Assembly (NCBI GenBank): GCA_039680605.1
Contig: JBDKTA010000065.1
Location: 1 to 64,000, forward strand
Origin: Planctomycetaceae bacterium
GTDB lineage: Bacteria > Planctomycetota > Phycisphaerae > SM23-33
DNA length: 64,000 bases
Direction: 5' to 3'
Each line of letters opens with the position of its first letter. Position 1 is the first letter of the stretch. Both the position numbers and the translations under genes were made by a program. The notes beneath the pieces were generated by a model that worked only from the letters and a program-made list of their open reading frames with translations, was not told the origin of the DNA and did not search any database. Below are positions 5,420 to 46,484 of this stretch, in pieces.

Positions 5420-6442
5420 TCATGAAAGAACTTGCCCGGCGATCGCCAGAGCCCGCTCGATATCCTGCTCGTCGACTTCCAGGCACGTCACGGCCCGGCA
5501 GGAATGGGGACCCAGCGCCATGATCCGCACGCCGGCCTCGTCGAGCCTGGCAGCCAGGTCCGCGGCGGGCATGGTGGTGATGTCGAAGAAGACGATGTTG
5601 GTCTGGACGCTCTGGGGGTCGAGTTTGACGCCCGGCAGGGCCGCCAGCCCGCCTGCAAGTTTCCGGGCGTTGGCATGATCTTCCGCCAGGCGCCGGCGAT
5701 TGTGTTCCAGGGCGTACAACGCCCCCGCCGCGATGATGCCCACCTGCCGCATGCCGCCGCCGAAGAGTTTTCGCACGCGTCTCGCCTGGGCGATGAAGTC
5801 CTTCGTGCCCGCCAGCGCCGAGCCCACCGGCGCGCCCAGGCCTTTCGAAAAGCACACGCTGACGGAGTCCACCTGCCCAGCGTAGTCCGCTTCGGATACG
5901 CCGGCGGCGACGGCGGCGTTCCAAAGCCGCGCGCCGTCCATGTGGATCTTCATCCCGCGCCTGCGTGCCTCGGCCGACACGCCGGCCAGCGTCTCCAGCG
6001 GCCAGATGCTCCCGCCGCCGCGATTGTGCGTGTTCTCGAGGCACACCAGCGACGGCTGGGGGAAGTGTACGTTCGCCGGCCGGATCGCCGCGGCCAGTTC
6101 ATCGGCGTTGAAGATTCCGCGCCGGGCCTCGATCAGCCGCATCGTGACGCCGGAAAGCGCCGCCGGAGCGCCGGCCTCATAGTAGTGGCAGTGGGCGTTG
6201 GCGTCGGTGACGACTTCGTCGCCCGCACGCGTGTGGCAGCGTATGGCGATCTGATTGGCCATCGTCCCCGAAGGCGTATAGAGAGCGGCCTCTTTGCTGA
6301 GAATCTCGGCCGTCTTCTTTTCCAGAGCGATGACGGTGGGATCGTCGCCGAGCACATCATCGCCCACTTCCGCCGCCGCGATGGCGGCGCGCATGGCCGG
6401 GGTTGGTTTGGTAATCGTGTCAGATCGCAGGTCTATGGGCAT
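5420..6442 (-). CDS. ltaE: low-specificity L-threonine aldolase
   Basis: This PLP enzyme cleaves threonine/allo-threonine to glycine and acetaldehyde. The N-terminus [15 protein letters not shown] is diagnostic. G-T-M-A-N-Q and H-M-D-G-A-R-L-W follow, with the PLP-lysine in [14 protein letters not shown]. Length is 340 residues from the ATG at 6442. The frame is open upstream for eleven more codons, but these are encoded by an AATTTCC repeat array and are unlikely to be translated. No strong Shine-Dalgarno remains because the repeat abuts the start codon. Confidence 0.93.
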
Positions 6443-6480
6443 TTCAATTTCCAATTTACAATTTCCAATTTCCAATTGAG
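6443..6480. repeat. AATTTCC simple-repeat array (left flank of IVP cassette 1)
   Basis: Four imperfect copies of a CAATTTCC-type unit lie between the ltaE start codon and the four-helix-bundle gene. The same unit recurs in inverted orientation on the other side of that gene (6894-6926 and again 6984-7017). Confidence 0.8.
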
Positions 6481-6488
6481 AAGAACCT

Positions 6489-6869
6489 TCACGCCGGGTT
6501 CTTCCTGGCCTTGGCGACCCTTCTTGCTTTGGCGGTCTTTTCGGACGCTACAACAATCGAGATGATCTCTCGTCCTTCCTTGATCAGGTCGCTGACAAGA
6601 GCATCCTTTGTCAATTCGGCCTCTTTTGCCATGACGATCCAGAAGACGGATTCATCCGCTTCCTCTTCAACGATGCCGAGCTTGTTGAGAAAGTCTGCGT
6701 AGCTTCTTCCTGCACACGCGGCGTGATAATTCGCCGCGGCGCTGGTTCCGCATCTAATCAACTGATTAGCCATGATCTTGCCCGTAATGGTCTTTGGAAA
6801 TGACTCGGCAAGGCGTATGCACCGCAGCGCGTATGCCCGCAGTCTCTTCTTCATTTCATCAGGCGTCAT
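6489..6869 (-). CDS. four-helix-bundle protein, S23 / 23S rRNA IVP family
   Basis: The protein has 126 residues and four predicted helices. Family hallmarks are A-L-R-C-I-R-L near the N-terminus, F-P-K-T, then Q-L-I-R-C-G-T-S-A-A-A-N-Y and D-F-L-N-K-L-G-I-V-E-E-E-A-D-E-S. This family is known from open reading frames inside 23S rRNA intervening sequences and from Avd-like accessory proteins of diversity-generating retroelements; no retroelement is present here. The ATG at 6869 follows AGAGGCG. The gene is enclosed by inverted AATTTCC arrays that butt against ltaE and dapB. Its function is unknown. Confidence 0.85.
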   Translation of the reverse strand: MTPDEMKKRLRAYALRCIRLAESFPKTITGKIMANQLIRCGTSAAANYHAACAGRSYADFLNKLGIVEEEADESVFWIVMAKEAELTKDALVSDLIKEGREIISIVVASEKTAKARRVAKARKNPA

Positions 6870-6893
6870 GGTCGCCTCTGTTGTTTAATGTTG

Positions 6894-6926
6894 TTAAATT
6901 GGAAATTCCAAATTGGAAATTGGAAA
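6894..6926. repeat. AAATTGGAAATT array (right flank of IVP cassette 1)
   Basis: The units AAATTGGAAATT-CCAAATTGG and further copies are in inverted orientation to 6443-6480. The flanking text TTAATGTTGTTAAATTGG recurs almost exactly at 6975-6990. Confidence 0.8.
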
Positions 6927-6962
6927 TTACTCCAAACCCTTCTTCATCTCATCAGGCGTCAT
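6927..6962 (-). pseudogene. truncated second copy of the IVP gene start
   Basis: Reading minus from 6962 gives MTPDEMKKGLE then stop. The first eight codons are identical in protein to the complete gene at 6489-6869 (MTPDEMKKRLRAY). It is followed by another AATTTCC array and preceded by the same TTGTTAAATTGG leader. The gene body has been deleted between the two arrays, leaving a tandem remnant. Confidence 0.7.
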
Positions 6963-6983
6963 AGGGCACCCGTTGTCAATGTT

Positions 6984-7017
6984 GTTAAATTGGAAATTCC
7001 AAATTGGAAATCGGAAA
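6984..7017. repeat. AAATTGGAAATT array abutting dapB stop codon
   Basis: This is the third array of the same unit. Its last bases run directly into the TAA of dapB. Together with 6846-6926 it forms an imperfect direct repeat of about 80 bp. Confidence 0.75.
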
Positions 7018-7809
7018 TTATTTCAAGCCCAGCACATCCAGCATGTCATACAGCCCCGGCTTCTTGCCGGCCAGCCACTGGGCGGCCCGCAGGGCGCCGC
7101 GGGCGAAGTTGTCTCGGGTGTGGGCAACGTGGCCCAGGGTGATCGTCTCGCCCAGGTTGCCGAAATGCACCGTGTGCTCGCCGACGGTGTCGCCGACGCG
7201 CAGGGCGTGCATGCCGATCTCGCCGGGGTTCCTGGGGCACTGCCCGCCGCGACCCAGGACGGCGACCTCGCCGTATTCCTTGCCCGTGACGGCACAGATC
7301 GACTTGGCCAGGGCGATCGCCGTCCCGGACGGCGCATCCTTCTTGAAGCGATGGTGCGTCTCGGAGATCTCGATGTCATAGTCGCCCCCCAGCGCCGCGG
7401 CCGCCTGGGCCACCAGCTTGAGCAACACGTTGACGCCCACGGACATGTTGGCCGCATGCACGATCGGGATCGTCGCCGCCGCGTCGGCGATCTCGGCGCG
7501 CTGGCTATCGGTCAGACCGGTCGTGCCGATGACCATCGCGCAACCCCGCTCGCGGCAGACCCGCAGCCACTCCATCGTGCCCTCGGGCAGCGAGAAGTCG
7601 ATCAGCACCTGCGGCAAGGCCGCCATCTCCTGCGTCACCGCCAGGCCGAAATGCCCCACGCCGGCCAATTCGCCGACGTCGGCTCCCAGCGCCGGTTGAC
7701 CGGCGACTTCGACAGCCGCCACGATGTCGAACTGCTCCGACTCGATAGCCAGCGCCGCGATGCGCCGCCCCATGCGCCCGCCCGCGCCCGTGATAGCGAT
7801 TTTGATCAT
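7018..7809 (-). CDS. dapB: 4-hydroxy-tetrahydrodipicolinate reductase
   Basis: DapB reduces hydroxy-tetrahydrodipicolinate with NAD(P)H in the lysine/diaminopimelate pathway that feeds peptidoglycan. The N-terminal nucleotide loop I-T-G-A-G-G-R-M-G-R-R is present. So are IGTTGLT, the catalytic E-T-H-H-R-F-K-K-D-A-P-S-G-T motif (His pair and Lys) and the C-terminal R-D-N-F-A-R-G-A-L-R-A-A-Q-W. Length is 263 residues, normal for the family. AAAGGACG precedes the ATG. No other dap genes are nearby. The stop codon is fused to a simple-repeat array. Confidence 0.96.
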   Translation of the reverse strand: MIKIAITGAGGRMGRRIAALAIESEQFDIVAAVEVAGQPALGADVGELAGVGHFGLAVTQEMAALPQVLIDFSLPEGTMEWLRVCRERGCAMVIGTTGLTDSQRAEIADAAATIPIVHAANMSVGVNVLLKLVAQAAAALGGDYDIEISETHHRFKKDAPSGTAIALAKSICAVTGKEYGEVAVLGRGGQCPRNPGEIGMHALRVGDTVGEHTVHFGNLGETITLGHVAHTRDNFARGALRAAQWLAGKKPGLYDMLDVLGLK

Positions 7810-11069: not shown

Positions 11070-11250
11070 GGCGAAAACTGCATGAACCGCAGAGACCGCA
11101 GAGCACGCAGAGACGCAAGTGGCTCAAAACAACGCCATCTAACATCGCTTGGGCGTTAATCTGAAAAAACAGACTGTCCAGGCGACCCACCTGCGTGGTT
11201 CAAAATATCTCTGCGGTCTCTGCGATCTCCGCGGTGAAATATCCCGGCTA
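11070..11250. repeat. inverted-repeat element, copy 3 (ends on a stop codon)
   Basis: Left end ACCGCAGAGACCGCAGAG, right end CTCTGCGATCTCCGCGGT then GAAATATCCCGGCTAG. The core shares ACGCCATCTAACATCGC and CAGACTGTCCA with copy 2. The terminal CTA is the stop codon (TAG on minus) of the small lipoprotein gene at 11248-11409. Confidence 0.8.
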
Positions 11251-16840: not shown

Positions 16841-16935
16841 GCGATTTCGGATTGTCGATTGCGGATTTCGGATTAGATTTCAGATTCCTGATTTGAGATT
16901 TGAGATTTGAGATTTGAGTATTTCAGATTCCAATG

Positions 16936-20518: not shown

Positions 20519-20572
20519 TTGGATGATTGGATGGATGGATGATTGGATGGATGGATGGATGGATGGATGGGG
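20519..20572. repeat. GGAT tetranucleotide array (left flank of IVP cassette 2)
   Basis: About 11 GGAT units, some interrupted by GATT, start right at the obgE stop codon. The inverted equivalent (ATCC) lies at 21073-21111 on the other side of the IVP gene. Confidence 0.85.
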
Positions 20573-20615
20573 GATTCGGGTTTGGGAGCTTTCTTCTGGC
20601 GCAGGGAGATGGGCT

Positions 20616-21026
20616 GTGAAGAGAAACAATGTCAACCGGGGATATCGGGACCTTCGGGTTTGGCAAGATGCCGTTGACTTGTATGTTCTCGTTTCACGTG
20701 CATTCGCTAAACCTGCCTTCGAGCTTGGAAAAGTGACGTCGAACCTGCTGGATGCGGCCAACAGCATTTCCCGCAACATCGCAGAGGGTTATTGCAGGCG
20801 ATCTGCCAAAGAGTATCTGAACTTCCTGAACATTGCCTTGGGTTCCTGCGGCGAATTGCTTTCTGCCGTCACCGCATCCAACAAGGCTTCACAACTCCCT
20901 GACGATAAATTCGAAGCCATCGACACATTGCATTACAAGGTGGAGAATGAACTGCTTAAACTGATACAAGCGATTCGGAACAAGAACCGTGATGGAGAAT
21001 GGAATGAAGCGTTCTCAGAAAGGTAG
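20616..21026 (+). CDS. four-helix-bundle protein, S23 / 23S rRNA IVP family (second copy)
   Basis: I chose the GTG start at 20616 after GGGAG, giving 136 residues. Upstream in-frame codons are translations of the GGAT array. The sequence has the canonical family signature: GYRDLRVWQDAVDLYVL, then AANSISRNIAEGYCR and EYLNFLNIALGSCGEL, ending with a long helix. It is a different subfamily from the gene at 6489-6869, so this is not a recent duplication. It is bracketed by inverted GGAT/ATCC arrays between obgE and coaX. Unknown cellular function; the family is known from 23S rRNA intervening sequences. Confidence 0.9.
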   Translation: MKRNNVNRGYRDLRVWQDAVDLYVLVSRAFAKPAFELGKVTSNLLDAANSISRNIAEGYCRRSAKEYLNFLNIALGSCGELLSAVTASNKASQLPDDKFEAIDTLHYKVENELLKLIQAIRNKNRDGEWNEAFSER

Positions 21027-21072
21027 CCTGCCGGCCCATACCTGTTCGCACTGCGAACTACGCCGGGCAAGG

Positions 21073-21111
21073 TTCATCCATCCATCCATCCATCCATCCA
21101 TCCATTCATCC
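21073..21111. repeat. ATCC array (right flank of IVP cassette 2)
   Basis: Nine near-perfect CATC/ATCC units in inverted orientation to 20519-20572, ending 23 bases before the coaX ATG. Confidence 0.85.
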
Positions 21112-21999: not shown

Positions 22000-22035
22000 A
22001 TGGATGGATGGATGGATGGATGGATGGATGGATGG
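22000..22035. repeat. GGAT array between coaX and mnmE-like
   Basis: Nine GGAT units without an associated IVP gene. It is followed at 22044-22104 by a GGTGGCATGGCGACACGCG...GTCGCCAT palindrome, the same order as at 41632-41740. Confidence 0.8.
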
Positions 22036-25049: not shown

Positions 25050-25337
25050 AAAAGAAAATCCGAAATACGAATATCGAAATTCGAAGCAAAAAGAAGCAAA
25101 ACGGCAATAAACAAAAATAGGAGTCAGAAGCCGGCGTTCTTCCTGTTGGTTTTCCGTTTCTTGTTTCTTGTGTCTTGTTTCTTGCTTCTTGTTCTTTTGC
25201 TTTTTGTTTCGAATTTCGAATTTCGGTATTCGAATTTTGTTTCTGATTTTTCCCTTCCCGGATGGCGCCGGGCGTGATTGGTCAGGGACCGACCGCCGTA
25301 CCGGATGGCGTCGGTGCGTTTTTATCCTTCACGGACG
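25050..25337. repeat. intergenic CGAATTTCG-type simple repeats
   Basis: Between dnaA and the terminator are palindromic runs of AATTCGAA/TTTCGAATTTCG (about 25065-25110 and 25205-25240). They frame a run of CTTGTTTCTTG repeats (25160-25200). No gene is visible. Confidence 0.6.
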
Positions 25338-26427: not shown

Positions 26428-26598
26428 AAACTGCTTTCACCGCAGAGACCGCGGAGACCGCAGAGAAGCAAACGACTTAAATAATCGCAGTCGCGGTGGG
26501 CTCAATCGAAAGACTGTCCAAGAAGCGATCTCTCGAACTTCTTTGAAGCATTCTACCTTTGCGGTCTCTGCGATCTCCGCGGTGAAATACGCAGGCTA
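26428..26598. repeat. inverted-repeat element, copy 4 (ends on a stop codon)
   Basis: Left ACCGCAGAGACCGCGGAGAC, right CTCTGCGATCTCCGCGGT then GAAATACGCAGGCTAG. The core retains AGACTGTCCAAG but is otherwise diverged. The CTA in the terminal GGCTAG is the TAG stop of the large PQQ gene. Confidence 0.75.
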
Positions 26599-29500
26599 GA
26601 CGCTGGGCGCGAAGGCGATCGACGTTTCCAGCCACGAGCCGCAACTGCATCCGCCGCCGGCCTCGGGCGAGAGCACCATCCCGCAGGCGGCGACGGTGCT
26701 GATCCAGCACCCGGGGCGCAGGCGGTACCAGAAGCTTGCCTGGTCGTTGTTGAAGTCCCACACCGTCACGTGGCTGGAGCGGAAGATCGCCGTGCGGTCG
26801 GTCATAATGTACGTGCCGCATCCGCCGCCGGGCATGCGGACCTCCAGCAGCGCTCCGGTGGCCAGGTCGAGCACGCGCGGACGCACGAACACCTTGCCGT
26901 CGACGATCGCCGGATGCGACATGTGCCCGCCGTGGTTGTCGCTCATCCACTCGAAGCTCGTCTGCCACAGCGCCGAGCCGTCGGCAGCGCTGAACGCATA
27001 CACGTTGTACCGCACGTCGGAGGCGTTAATGACCAGCCGCCCCTCCGCCGCGGCCATGTAGAACACCACCACGCCCGGGGCGGTCTTGAGCGGCTGCTCC
27101 CACAGCAGGCGTCCATCGGCGGCGTCAAGCGCCACGAGATACTGCTGCTGCCACAGCTCGTCCATGCCGACGCGGCGATCGGCGCTGGCCAGCACAGCCG
27201 GGTGTCGGCACTCGACGAAATACACCCGCCCGTCGGCGATGCAGATCGTCGAGTTGATCACCACGCCGCCGGCGTACTTCCACGCCAGGCCGCCGGTGCT
27301 CTTGTTCATCGCGAAGAGATTTTCACTGCAGACCTTGAACGTCGCCGGACCGTCCTTGGCGTCATACCAGTTCGCATGGCCGACAAACGCCACGAACGCC
27401 GATCCGGCCTTGACCGCGCTGCCGATGATATTGGCGCCGCCATCGGCGACATAGCCCCAGTCCCACGCCGCGCCTGTGTGCCATGGCGGTCGTTTTCCCG
27501 CCGCCATGTCCCCGGACCCTGAAACTACCTCAAACATCTTGGCCACGCTGCCGTCTCGCTGGTCGATCTTCCAGCACTGCCCTTTGACGGCCGCGTAGAG
27601 ATGAGATTGGTCGGCGCACCAGTTGCCGCAGTCGCGGGGCATGTTGAAGCGGCAGAACGCGGGCATTTCGAGCGACCAGAGCACCGTGCCGTTGAACGAG
27701 TCCAGCGCCACGATGCGCCGGCGCCCCTGGCCAAACAGCCTGCCGTTGATCGCCAGGGGGGCGGGTTTGCGGCCGTTGCGGTCGGGCTGATACCGCGGGC
27801 CCGGTTCACCGACCCACTGCACGGCCAGGTCGAGCGTGGACCCTGCGCCGGCCAGCGCCTCGCCGCCGTAGGAGGTGTTGTCGGCCAGACCGTACTGGTG
27901 AGTCCAGACGCCGGCGGTGGCGATCGGCGGGAGCGTGGTGACGGTCGGGGAGATGGCGGCTGGGGAACGGCCGCCATGGCACCCTGTGTCGCCGCCGCGA
28001 ATCAACACGCCGCTGCCGGGGCACAGGAGGCGCATGGCCTCGGCGGCGGCAGGATCGCTCAGCGGTTGCGACGCGACGATGATGTTGGCGAAGCTGCCGA
28101 CGAAGGGGATGGCGTCGTAGCTCCGGACGTGATGGACAGCCACGCATGCGCCGTACACGCCGGCGGCCTGGAACATGCGGCGGGCAGAGGCAACCGCCGC
28201 GGCGTCGGTATCGACAGCGATCACGCGCAGGCGGCTCTGGCGTGCCAGTTCGTATGCCAATTGCCCGTCGCCGCAGCCGAGCATCAGGCAGATGCCCCGG
28301 TCGACGCCGGCGGTCTTGAGAATGCCTTCGGCGGCCTGTCGTGTGGCATGGGCGTCTCGCCCATGCTCCGGGGTGGCATGGGCGTCTCGCCCATGCTCCG
28401 GGGTGGCATGGGCGTCTCGCCCATGCTCTTGCTTTTGTCCCTGCACAGGCAAGACGCCCACGCTACAGGGCTCATAGTTGAAGTACGTGTCGCACTCGAA
28501 AGTCACCGCCTGATCGCCGGCCCAGGCCGTGCAGTCGTAGATGGCGTCCCGGCGCAGATCCGTCAGATGCACCTCGTGCTGGACCTTCGGCTGAGGGTCT
28601 TCGATCGCGCGCTGGTCCTGGCCGTGGGCATATTGAAACTTCGTCGGGACCGGGTCGGGGGTTTGCCAGCGGACTGTGGCCGCGGTGCGGCTGGTGAATT
28701 GCAGGTACGGCGCCAGGGGCATGGCCTCGGGCGGGGTGATTTCCTCGACCGGGCCGCCCTCGACGTACGCGGGGGGTGCCGGTTTCCACGCATTGGCGGC
28801 GGCCTGCCCCTGAGGCGCGAAGCAGTAGATCGCCCCGGCGTCGGTGGTGGCGTAGAGCATTCCCGCGGCCAGCGCCAGGCCGTGTACTTTGCCCGTCACG
28901 GCCGACTGCCAGAGTTGCAGACCGGTGTCGGCGTCGAAGGCCGCCAGGGCGTCGGCCCCGCCGGCAAAGAGCGTGGTCCCGGCCAGCACGAGCGAATACG
29001 GGTAGTCGCACGGTTGCTTCCATCGCTCGGCGCCGCTGGCGCGATCGACGGCCGCCAGCGTGCTGCGCGTGAGCACGAAGACCGTGCCGTCATGCACCAC
29101 GGCGGCGGTTCCATCATCGAAGGCCGCCAGCTTCTGCCCCGAATCGCCGGCGCTGAGGGTGATCCATCCGGCGTTGTTGCCCGGGCCGTGCAGGACCTGG
29201 TCATCTTCGGTCAGCAGCACGAAGCATCCCCCGCCGTTGGTGAGCGAGCCCAGCAGCCGCCCGTCTTTACGCGAGAACATCAGCGGCGGGATGCGGCCTT
29301 GGGGAATGTACAACCGGTCGGCCGAGATCAGCATGGCTCCTTCCATCGTCAGCCCGGCGGTTTGCTCGACGCGTCCGCTCTGCGGGGCCCCCTGGTGCAG
29401 GGCGACGTATCGCCCGCGTCCTTGGGGCTTGCCGCTGTGGGCGTCGACGGCGCAGAGATACGAGTCTTCCCACGGGAGCATGCCGGCGGCGAAATACGCC

Positions 29501-30009
29501 GTGCCGTCTTCCACCAGCACACCCGTGCGCACCGGCCAGTGCCCGATCAGCCGCCCGTTGTTGAGGAACCGCCGCCCATCCGGCGAGGGGCGGAACTTCC
29601 AGACCAGCGAGCCGTCGTCGGCCGCCAGGCAGTATGCAAAACCGTCGTCGCTGCCGAAGTAGATCTTGCCGTCAACAAACGTCGGGGCGATGCGCACCGG
29701 CGCATCGGTGGTGAAGAGCCATTTCTCCTGCCCGCTGATCGCGTCGAGGCAGTGGACGGAATCGTCCACGCTCGATCCGAAAAACAGCGACCCGCCGGCC
29801 ACGATCATGTGAAAAGCCGGATCGTAATTTCGCATCGAGCGCAGGGGCTTTACGATGCGGTAGGCGTCGTACTTGGCCGGTCCGCTCCAGGCGGGTTGGG
29901 GCGGCTGGGGCGACTGCCACGTCCAGGCCTGAGCCAGCGAACCGGCGTTGAGGGTCGCGTGCGTCTTGCCGCTGCGGCGGTTGTCGTGCTGATACGTCGG
30001 CCAATCCAT
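26596..30009 (-). CDS. PQQ-type beta-propeller protein with embedded methyltransferase domain
   Basis: The 1137 residues have three parts. Residues 1-420 are PQQ-like propeller repeats (I-S-G-Q-E-K-W-L-F, D-G-S-L-V-W-K-F). Residues 430-510 resemble a fibronectin-type domain. About 560-690 form a class I SAM-methyltransferase fold with L-M-L-G-C-G-D-G-Q-L and A-V-D-T-D. Residues 700-1137 are a second propeller (L-D-S-F-N-G-T-V-L-W-S-L). No signal peptide is evident, so it is possibly cytoplasmic. Residues 528-556 are three in-frame copies of a REP-like palindrome (EHGRDAHATP), acting as linker. The TAG stop lies inside an inverted-repeat element. Substrate unknown. Confidence 0.85.
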   Translation of the reverse strand: MDWPTYQHDNRRSGKTHATLNAGSLAQAWTWQSPQPPQPAWSGPAKYDAYRIVKPLRSMRNYDPAFHMIVAGGSLFFGSSVDDSVHCLDAISGQEKWLFTTDAPVRIAPTFVDGKIYFGSDDGFAYCLAADDGSLVWKFRPSPDGRRFLNNGRLIGHWPVRTGVLVEDGTAYFAAGMLPWEDSYLCAVDAHSGKPQGRGRYVALHQGAPQSGRVEQTAGLTMEGAMLISADRLYIPQGRIPPLMFSRKDGRLLGSLTNGGGCFVLLTEDDQVLHGPGNNAGWITLSAGDSGQKLAAFDDGTAAVVHDGTVFVLTRSTLAAVDRASGAERWKQPCDYPYSLVLAGTTLFAGGADALAAFDADTGLQLWQSAVTGKVHGLALAAGMLYATTDAGAIYCFAPQGQAAANAWKPAPPAYVEGGPVEEITPPEAMPLAPYLQFTSRTAATVRWQTPDPVPTKFQYAHGQDQRAIEDPQPKVQHEVHLTDLRRDAIYDCTAWAGDQAVTFECDTYFNYEPCSVGVLPVQGQKQEHGRDAHATPEHGRDAHATPEHGRDAHATRQAAEGILKTAGVDRGICLMLGCGDGQLAYELARQSRLRVIAVDTDAAAVASARRMFQAAGVYGACVAVHHVRSYDAIPFVGSFANIIVASQPLSDPAAAEAMRLLCPGSGVLIRGGDTGCHGGRSPAAISPTVTTLPPIATAGVWTHQYGLADNTSYGGEALAGAGSTLDLAVQWVGEPGPRYQPDRNGRKPAPLAINGRLFGQGRRRIVALDSFNGTVLWSLEMPAFCRFNMPRDCGNWCADQSHLYAAVKGQCWKIDQRDGSVAKMFEVVSGSGDMAAGKRPPWHTGAAWDWGYVADGGANIIGSAVKAGSAFVAFVGHANWYDAKDGPATFKVCSENLFAMNKSTGGLAWKYAGGVVINSTICIADGRVYFVECRHPAVLASADRRVGMDELWQQQYLVALDAADGRLLWEQPLKTAPGVVVFYMAAAEGRLVINASDVRYNVYAFSAADGSALWQTSFEWMSDNHGGHMSHPAIVDGKVFVRPRVLDLATGALLEVRMPGGGCGTYIMTDRTAIFRSSHVTVWDFNNDQASFWYRLRPGCWISTVAACGMVLSPEAGGGCSCGSWLETSIAFAPSV
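28343..28432. repeat. triple 30-bp REP-like repeat within coding sequence
   Basis: Three units of GTGGCATGGGCGTCTCGCCC-ATGCTCCGGG with an exact 30-base period, each holding the palindrome GCATGGGCG..CGCCCATGC. The period keeps the frame (10 residues). Intergenic relatives are at 41756, 49098, 49190 and 51812. Confidence 0.85.
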
Positions 30010-30863: not shown

Positions 30864-30875
30864 ACCGGCATAGTA

Positions 30876-30966
30876 ACCAGTAATCAGTAACCGGTAACCA
30901 GTAATTGCACAGTTGAGCAGTGATTACCGATTACCGATTACCGATTACTGATTACTGATTACTGAT
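30876..30966. repeat. GTAACCAGTAATCAG / ATTACTGATT tandem array
   Basis: Alternating TAGTAACCAGTAATC and inverted ATTACCGATTACTGATTAC units lie between alkD and the deacetylase gene. The same family forms a longer array at 37124-37258. Confidence 0.8.
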
Positions 30967-31787: not shown

Positions 31788-31959
31788 CTCACCGCAGAGT
31801 TCGCGGAGGACGCAGAGAAGACGGACAAGGAAGGGGAATGATGGAATAATGGAATCCTGCACCAAGCCGACGTTCCATTATTCCATTATTCCATTGTTCC
31901 TTCTCTTCAGCTTTCTCTGCGTCCTCTGCGATCTCTGCGGTGAGTCGCTTTTGCGGCTA
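31788..31959. repeat. inverted-repeat element with exchanged core (shell copy 5)
   Basis: Ends ACCGCAGAGTTCGCGGAGG and CCTCTGCGATCTCTGCGG match the copy 1-4 shell. The core is instead a nested inverted repeat of ATGGAATAATGG/CCATTATTCCATT. The terminal GGCTAG overlaps the stop of the CPBP protease gene. Confidence 0.7.
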
Positions 31960-35487: not shown

Positions 35488-35590
35488 CTATGGAGTGCGG
35501 CGGCAGCAGCCGCCGCTTTCCCTGTTTCTGGGGCAACAGCTACCCAACAACATCCAAAGCGGCGGCTCTGGCCGCCGCACTCCACATGCG
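35488..35590. repeat. paired CTATGGAGTGCGGCGG palindromes
   Basis: Two inverted copies (35488-35520 and 35554-35584) lie upstream of the GH10-like gene. A GGCAGTGCGTT-type region and no gene follow to 35728. Confidence 0.75.
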
Positions 35591-37123: not shown

Positions 37124-37258
37124 GGCAGTAAGCAGTAATCCGTAAACAGTAATCAGTAATCGGGTAATCAGTAATCGGGTTACTGGTTACTGTACTGGTT
37201 ACTGGTTACTGGTTACTGGTTACTGGTTACTGATTACCGGTTACTGATTACCGATTAC
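37124..37258. repeat. TTACTGG / CAGTAATC tandem array
   Basis: About 18 units of a 7-8 base repeat: AGTAATC on the left, TTACTGG in the middle and GATTACC on the right. It can fold on itself. It fills the gap between the Nudix gene and dxr. Confidence 0.85.
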
Positions 37259-37304
37259 GTGATTGCCAATATTTCCTTGGCAGCTAAGATAGCTGATTCA
37301 TGCC

Positions 37305-41568: not shown

Positions 41569-41631
41569 GCAAAACATGCTAGTTGCACATCGCAGGCAAG
41601 TCAACGAACAGTAGCGACGGCGGGAGGAAGA

Positions 41632-41667
41632 ATGGATGGATGGATGGATGGATGGATGGATGGATGA
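41632..41667. repeat. GGAT array upstream of the lipoprotein gene
   Basis: Nine GGAT units with no IVP gene. A GGAAGAATGGAATGTTGG run and the GGTGGCATGGCGACACGCG palindrome follow (41698-41740), the same arrangement as at 22000-22104. Confidence 0.8.
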
Positions 41668-41755
41668 AAGACCGGAAGAATGGAATGTTGGAAGAATGGG
41701 TGGCATGGCGACACGCGTTGTTCAGCGGGTCGCCATGATCGCAGCACCCGACGGG

Positions 41756-46083: not shown

Positions 46084-46484
46084 GGCTTGTTTCTACGACG
46101 ATTGCGTGGCTAAGTCAACGGGGACGGGGACGGGGACGGGGAGTGCGGGATTGGGACGGGATTGAGGGGATTAAGAGGATTAAGACAAGAGGAGTTACTA
46201 AACGGGGATTGGGACGGGGAGTGCCGGATCGGGGAGCGTTTGTTTCGTCCTCGTCCTCGTCCTCGTCCTCGTCGTCGTCGTCGGTTGTTTCTTTCCTGGC
46301 CGGAGAACGGGGAGTGCGGGATTACGCGGATTGAAAGGATTAAGAGGATTAAGACAAAGATCAGGAACACGCAGATCGCGGGATCGGCCAGACAGAAGCC
46401 CCAATCGCAATGTCTCCAATCCTCAATCCTGTTTTAAAAATCCTCTTAATCCGCGTAATCCCGCACTCCCCGGTCTCTGATCTG
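46084..46484. repeat. low-complexity intergenic region (GGGGAC, GTCCTC, GATTAAGAG repeats)
   Basis: It contains GGGGACGGGGACGGGGACGG (46119 on), a TCGTCC/TCGTCG run (46250-46285) and GGATTAAGAGGATTAAGAC in direct and inverted copies (46166, 46336, 46437). G-rich runs could form quadruplexes. No gene is visible. Confidence 0.7.

Follow-up and report, generated by a model that had tools for sequence, protein, structure and literature searches.

S23-family genes enclosed by inverted repeat arrays form widespread, mobile-looking cassettes at bacterial protein-gene junctions

Proteins of the S23 (IVP) family, which we take to be common and conserved, with solved structures (2gsc, 2rld), have to our knowledge no known function. 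Their genes have been met chiefly in intervening sequences (IVSs) of 23S rRNA, as in helix 45 of Coxiella, where tandem heptamers (GACAGAT) stand directly upstream of S23p (PMC4990558), and CPR bacteria carry 16S/23S insertions with 23S_rRNA_IVP (PMC11270868). In the window, by which we mean the whole 64,000-nucleotide stretch analysed here (contig C65 of a 5.23-Mb assembly, hereafter the own genome), a gene of this kind is found between dapB and ltaE, enclosed by short tandem repeats in opposite orientation. What kind of element places it there?

The gene at 6489-6869 is a member of the PF05635/TIGR02436 (S23, IVP) family, matching PF05635 with E=5.1e-12 (46.4 bits against a curated cut-off of 33.8), TIGR02436 with E=3.5e-19 (score 69 against a curated cut-off of 24) and the structure 2rld with E=2.8e-10. 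Its position between inverted arrays, claimed in the original prediction, was confirmed: TRF places one array at 6441-6477 and two in the opposite orientation at 6896-6928 and 6987-7019, and the inverted-repeat scan pairs 6446-6477 with 6897-6928 as arms of 32 nt each, 91% complementary and 419 nt apart. The arrays do touch both neighbouring genes, as had been noticed, the left one adjoining the ltaE ATG (6442-6440) and the right one overlapping the dapB stop codon (7020-7018). Two copies of the S23-upstream arm are present because a 91-bp tandem duplication (6846-7020, TRF) takes in this arm and the first S23 codons. Like an rRNA IVS, the cassette has complementary ends around an S23 ORF; its site, however, is not a 23S or 16S rRNA gene, both cassettes of the window sitting between protein genes. 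Both of their S23 genes were missed by a codon-usage gene caller.

The second cassette, of like layout and expected at 20519-21111, was recovered at 20520-21111, with arms at 20537-20570 and 21078-21111 enclosing its S23 gene. The probable start of this gene is the GTG at 20616, since the ATG at 20523 falls inside the array. It had been described as unrelated in sequence to the first; the repeat unit does differ, and this is explained by its S23 belonging to another clade, each clade having its own unit. Gene-less inverted arrays and hairpins also occur in the window (Table 1), and further S23-free intergenic arrays of 7-, 4- and 9-nt units lie at 16843-16932, 22000-22035, 25156-25237, 41626-41699 and 11086-11235. 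A perfect 30-nt x 2.9 tandem repeat with the palindromic unit GTGGCATGGGCGTCTCGCCCATGCTCCGGG was seen at 28343-28428, inside a minus-strand ORF (26596-30009).

Table 1. Features of the window and of S23 loci and related elements in the own genome
Feature	Position	Strand	Unit or basis
ltaE-like beta-eliminating lyase, host gene, left border	5420-6442	-	PF01212 E=1.7e-102
Outer array arm, 3' of S23, adjoining ltaE start codon	6441-6477		(ATTTCCA)5.4; TRF + inverted-repeat scan
S23/IVP four-helix-bundle gene, 126 aa	6489-6869	-	PF05635, TIGR02436, PDB 2rld
91-bp tandem duplication with second upstream arm (6988-7019), ending in dapB stop	6846-7020		TRF period 91, 1.9 copies, 89%; arm match 88%
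Inverted arm 5' of S23	6897-6928		S23-sense unit CCAATTT; 91% complementary to 6446-6477; fits S23 subfamily-2 consensus
dapB, host gene, right border	7018-7809	-	PF05173/PF01113
Second-cassette array arm	20520-20570		8-nt/4-nt unit TGGATGAT/TGGATGGA; TRF + inverted-repeat scan
Second S23 gene (ORF 20523-21026)	20616-21026	+	PF05635 E=3.8e-19
Second-cassette inverted arm	21075-21111		(CATC)n; TRF + inverted-repeat scan
Gene-less inverted heptamer hairpin, loop 24	30872-30963		AGTAACC.../...GATTACT; inverted-repeat scan
Gene-less hairpin, 9-nt arms, loop 93	31788-31944		CCGCAGAG-type; inverted-repeat scan
Gene-less inverted heptamer arrays	37126-37264		CAGTAAT / GGTTACT; TRF
Gene-less hairpin, 9-nt arms, loop 97	46303-46477		GGATTA-type; inverted-repeat scan
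Own-genome locus L001			AGATCCT
Own-genome locus L004			TGGATGGA
Own-genome locus L005 and paralogue L006			CGACGAGGA
Arms of L005	C22:302497-302533 / 304525-304561
Own-genome locus L007 (the dapB-ltaE cassette)			CCAATTT
Own-genome locus L008			GGAATAAT
Own-genome locus L009			CTAAATT
Own-genome locus L010			AACAAAAC-like, weakly
Copies of the GGGAAAAGTCGCGGCGGAGGCAC-armed element	C22:39005, 109273, 281582; C49:6928, 42146; C39:81559

The own genome contains 13 PF05635 matches, 10 of them above the cut-off, and 8 of these 10 S23 genes lie between inverted arrays, with units that differ at nearly every locus. Arms are absent at L003, and the strict score gives no clear pair at L002. Locus L005 is split, its left arm being separated from S23 by a gene judged transposase-like on reading the neighbouring frame, and the S23 frames of L008 and L010 are broken by reading. 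A scan limited to array-type arms and covering about 863 kb of this genome found 54 inverted array pairs, 40 of which have a loop below 150 nt and are gene-less hairpins; such hairpins are commoner here than gene-bearing ones. Among the pairs with longer loops, six enclose S23, and the only other short single gene held tightly between arms is a GxxExxY PD-(D/E)XK gene (PF13366/TIGR04256). Identical unit families occur with and without S23, namely AGATCCT, CGACGAGGA and GGAATAAT. The genome also holds many copies of an element with GGGAAAAGTCGCGGCGGAGGCAC arms and a near-constant loop of about 110 nt, which is not of array type, and an abundant REP-like palindrome, TGGAGTGCGGCAGCC..GGCTGCCGCACTCCA (e.g. 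C33:4882-4967, C22:218746-218835 and window 35491-35584).

The generality of this arrangement was assessed with an arm score, the best ungapped inverted match between the 450 nt upstream and the 450 nt downstream of a gene, with cross-locus pairings as nulls and with other genes in the same loci, own-genome genes and ParE toxin genes as controls. PF05635 is present in 32 of 35 genomes of the same family, where 22 of 29 S23 loci score at least 14. We further sampled 80 S23 loci from GTDB (L117-L196), spanning Planctomycetota, Bacteroidota, Clostridia, Acidobacteria, Proteobacteria, Cyanobacteria, CPR, Verrucomicrobia, Chloroflexi and others; being the best matches to one S23 subfamily, they over-represent it, and related loci do not count as independent. 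A score of at least 14 was reached by 55 of the 80 against 1.7% of cross-locus pairings, and one of at least 16 by 48 of the 80 against 0.8%; about 30% of the loci fall below 14. At the higher threshold only 6 of the 348 control genes from these loci scored (Fisher p=3e-35), of which two are second S23 genes and one reads as a RAYT-like protein. This RAYT-like gene (MPNHVHLLW, L186:8603-9158) has inverted flanks, so the scan also catches a REP-RAYT-like case. Among own-genome genes 9 of 654 score at least 16, several of them adjoining array cassettes, and inverted arrays were found at none of 30 ParE toxin genes in same-family genomes. An S23 lineage with the motif F-E-[NK]-L-x-VYQKA... (L002:1486-1845, L108, L109, L111) seems array-less and is possibly domesticated.

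The placement of S23 between inverted arrays is thereby confirmed as general and above chance, and mobile-looking S23 array cassettes of about half a kilobase are spread over much of the bacterial tree. Arrays around all gene types alike, which would have spoken against the original prediction, were not seen: the rate is high only at S23 and GxxExxY genes, and the other-gene and ParE controls rule out that arrays flank any gene. The same controls, together with the cross-locus pairings, contradict an origin as ordinary slippage-prone intergenic simple repeats with no special tie to S23. Heptamer simple sequence repeats (SSRs) are over-represented in some bacteria (PMC4692102, PMC4679880), but slippage does not generate a matched pair of inverted arms separated by about 450 nt, and we give this origin almost no credence. 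No support was obtained for the proposal that the cassette had moved out of rRNA into intergenic space. A motif search found no rRNA motif at any of the 80 GTDB loci, which leaves confinement to, or departure from, rRNA unsupported and indicates that protein-gene junctions are the usual habitat.

Mobility of the cassettes is well supported by empty and filled orthologous junctions, by gene-less versions and by the dispersed and decayed copies that are present. Comparison of orthologous ltaE-dapB regions, as proposed in the original prediction, showed that S23 is absent from this junction in all relatives in which both genes are adjacent; two (L055, L062) carry gene-less hairpins of other units and five have no array. 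At a junction in genus g9, G008 has a full (AGGGACT)n S23 cassette. G048 has kept only a remnant, bordered on each side by (AGGMACC)-type arms but lacking S23 through deletion, and G046 and G047 show no element of this kind. The dispersed AGGGACT arrays of G008 are mostly one-armed or mosaic with other arrays, with a clean pair by score at 1 of 20 (L306). In three species of genus g11 the same junction is occupied by an S23 cassette. Depending on the species its arms are (TGGCAAT)n, (TGGCAAC)n or (AGGTGCT)n, left and right differing jointly; cassette replacement is possible in G010, because its S23 is just 55-64% identical. On Nostoc plasmids, the junction between TraM and a hypothetical gene is empty in L378, L382, L383 and L385, filled by an (AGGGAAC)n S23 cassette in L377 and L381, and occupied by gene-less hairpins in L379 and L380. 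One and the same junction can be empty, hold a full cassette or hold a gene-less hairpin. The S23 genes of L377 and L381 are identical at 362 of 363 nt against 83-94% for their flanks, with one arm of 6 versus 5 repeats, which suggests homing-like movement or recent recombination. The nrdB-nrdA junction has an S23 cassette in L376 and none in L384. The S23 cassettes do not simply interrupt the empty site but take the place of 16-40 nt of it. The single candidate for a target-site duplication, an AATRGTCA direct repeat (AATAGTCA/AATGGTCA, compared with the empty L385), bounds the gene-less hairpin of L380; none was found at the S23 sites examined.

Arms are matched within a locus and differ between loci, and those of junction-matched cassettes differ as a pair. 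Such matching might reflect an RNA-processing or regulatory cassette, whose arms would form a transcribed stem released by RNase III, as in rRNA IVSs, or bind a global regulator. Consistent with this, the S23-sense RNA folds with its arms paired (MFE -170 kcal/mol, z -5.4), RNase III cleaves the Coxiella IVS at its heptamer repeats (PMC4990558), and paired heptamer arrays of Geobacter have been classed as predicted global regulator sites (PMC2700814). However, G.U-compatible arm mismatches are no commoner than A.C-type ones (39 versus 50 and 18 versus 10, or 57 versus 60 summed over the two sets); RNA pairing is thus unsupported as the force keeping the arms alike, and DNA-level copying is favoured over RNA selection. 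Presence and absence at one junction, and the location of cassettes between unrelated genes, likewise argue against an RNA-level role, which we judge improbable. Of the two natures first suggested, a mobile cassette with simple-sequence inverted ends agrees with the junction comparisons, and an RNA-processing cassette is unsupported, no G.U excess being seen.

The repeat unit also follows the S23 clade. Arms are mostly of 7 nt, at 45 of 55 GTDB and 17 of 22 same-family loci, and 68 heptamer arms read in the S23 sense share the polar consensus A(81%) G(98%) [G/T] N [G/A] T [T/C] (YAGKNNT), with an information content of 3.46 against null maxima of 2.82 (row-permuted) and 2.76 (random strand). 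A second S23 subfamily (ANYxEA), which includes the window gene 6489-6869, has arms at 22 of 30 loci with the consensus [C/A]NAA[A/T]N[T/A] (NNAAWNW, 7 nt; window unit CCAATTT). Leave-one-out assignment placed 62 of 70 and 20 of 20 arms in the right S23 subfamily, and the clade to which the window's second S23 belongs uses 8-nt TGGA-type units in each of its four members (L004, L008, L337, L338). Across 103 heptamer loci, protein identity correlates with unit similarity (Mantel r 0.40, and 0.29 for pairs below 35% identity; p<=0.002). Both the length and the sequence of the unit vary with S23 clade, and the unit keeps one polarity with respect to the gene; the link to clade could stem partly from shared ancestry, though it persists at low identity. 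GxxExxY genes (PF13366, PD-(D/E)XK) lie in analogous inverted arrays at 26 of 30 same-family loci (L084-L087; L197-L225) and at 4 of 4 in the own genome, mostly with 9-nt units (CCGCAGAGA / ACCACAGAG / GGGATTACA).

These associations bear on the main rival explanation, that the hairpins owe their movement or formation to replication slippage or to another enzyme, such as a Y1/RAYT-type transposase, and that S23 merely settles in their loops as it does in rRNA helix tips. Gene-less hairpins do far outnumber S23-bearing ones, Y1_Tnp is present in 32 of 35 same-family genomes with 15 copies in the own genome, and rRNA IVSs likewise place S23 in a hairpin loop (PMC4990558). Yet a mere passenger is hard to reconcile with array units and lengths that track the S23 clade in fixed polarity, with the distinct, mostly 9-nt array class of GxxExxY cargo, or with the lack of ParE genes in such loops (0 of 30), and we consider this explanation unlikely.

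We regard it instead as probable that the window feature is one copy of a widespread kind of mobile element of about 0.4-0.6 kb, composed of an array arm, S23 and an inverted arm, with S23 as the end-recognition or mobilising factor. For the biochemical role of S23 and the strand-transfer enzyme, we infer the following scheme. The arrays would be the ends and recognition sites of the element. S23, basic (pI at least 8.8 in most of 20 sequences tested) and related to pentameric proteins of known structure, would bind its cognate array in trans and would mobilise or maintain both S23-bearing and gene-less hairpins, like RAYT proteins with REPs. We know of no catalytic activity for S23; strand transfer would be done by an enzyme encoded outside the cassette, for which a Y1 transposase is a candidate. 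The likeness of the arms may be kept by slippage together with copying at the DNA level, through template switching within a hairpin or cruciform. A telomerase-like or RT-templated origin of the arrays, prompted by Avd homology, is speculation. We hold only tentatively to a bolder proposal, in which S23 proteins themselves mobilise a pan-bacterial transposon class with hypervariable, clade-coded 7/8-nt inverted-array ends, GxxExxY nucleases do the same for a parallel class of mostly 9-nt units, and rRNA IVSs represent the minority of S23 elements whose insertion happened to hit rRNA helix tips.

REP/BIME elements and their RAYT proteins (TnpA-REP, Y1) combine a one-gene autonomous copy with many gene-less intergenic hairpins, and protein clade is linked to hairpin sequence. 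S23 cassettes share all three traits, with many gene-less hairpins of one sequence family in the own genome and, for AGGGACT, in genus g9, but they have no Y1 domain and end in tandem arrays, not in a fixed REP palindrome; in the window cassettes no Y1 (HUH) gene was found, PF05635 being the sole match. Fixed terminal inverted repeats common to all copies, as in IS elements and MITEs, are not seen either, the unit varying by locus. The long inverted-repeat stem with an S23 ORF in its loop, the element size of about 430 nt and the scattered distribution recall rRNA IVSs, whereas the protein-gene junction site, the clade-specific repeat-array ends, the many gene-less versions and the lack of any visible RNA-level maintenance set the cassettes apart. 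Heptamer SSR families, including Xanthomonas GGGAATC (PMC4692102), Beggiatoaceae TAACTGA (PMC4679880) and the Geobacter pairs MTYCTGA (PMC2700814), are also intergenic 7-nt arrays, sometimes in convergent pairs, and MTYCTGA on the other strand resembles YAGKNNT; the accessible parts of these sources neither tie them to S23 or GxxExxY nor treat them as element ends. Avd of diversity-generating retroelements (DGRs) has a homologous four-helix-bundle pentamer fold (PMC10053308), but the cassettes examined carry S23 only, with no RT or TR/VR seen inside. Viral contigs scanned with the window's second S23 yielded no relative. In the part of the literature covered, we found no prior description of the S23-array link, of 9-nt repeat strings, of GxxExxY in this setting or of S23 with a mobile element; coverage being partial, novelty is provisional. 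Provisionally, then, rRNA IVSs, Avd homology and heptamer SSRs, some of them paired, were known separately, and the link between them is new.

The array association gives a direct hypothesis for S23 function, with a predicted cognate site for each clade, and the cassettes offer an explanation for intergenic heptamer, octamer and nonamer repeats filed as SSRs or putative regulator sites. They also pose a new problem, namely how a change of repeat unit comes to affect both arms jointly across some 450 nt. If S23 is indeed the mobiliser, this would answer the question of its function and would imply mobility through a protein without a known transposase or recombinase domain.
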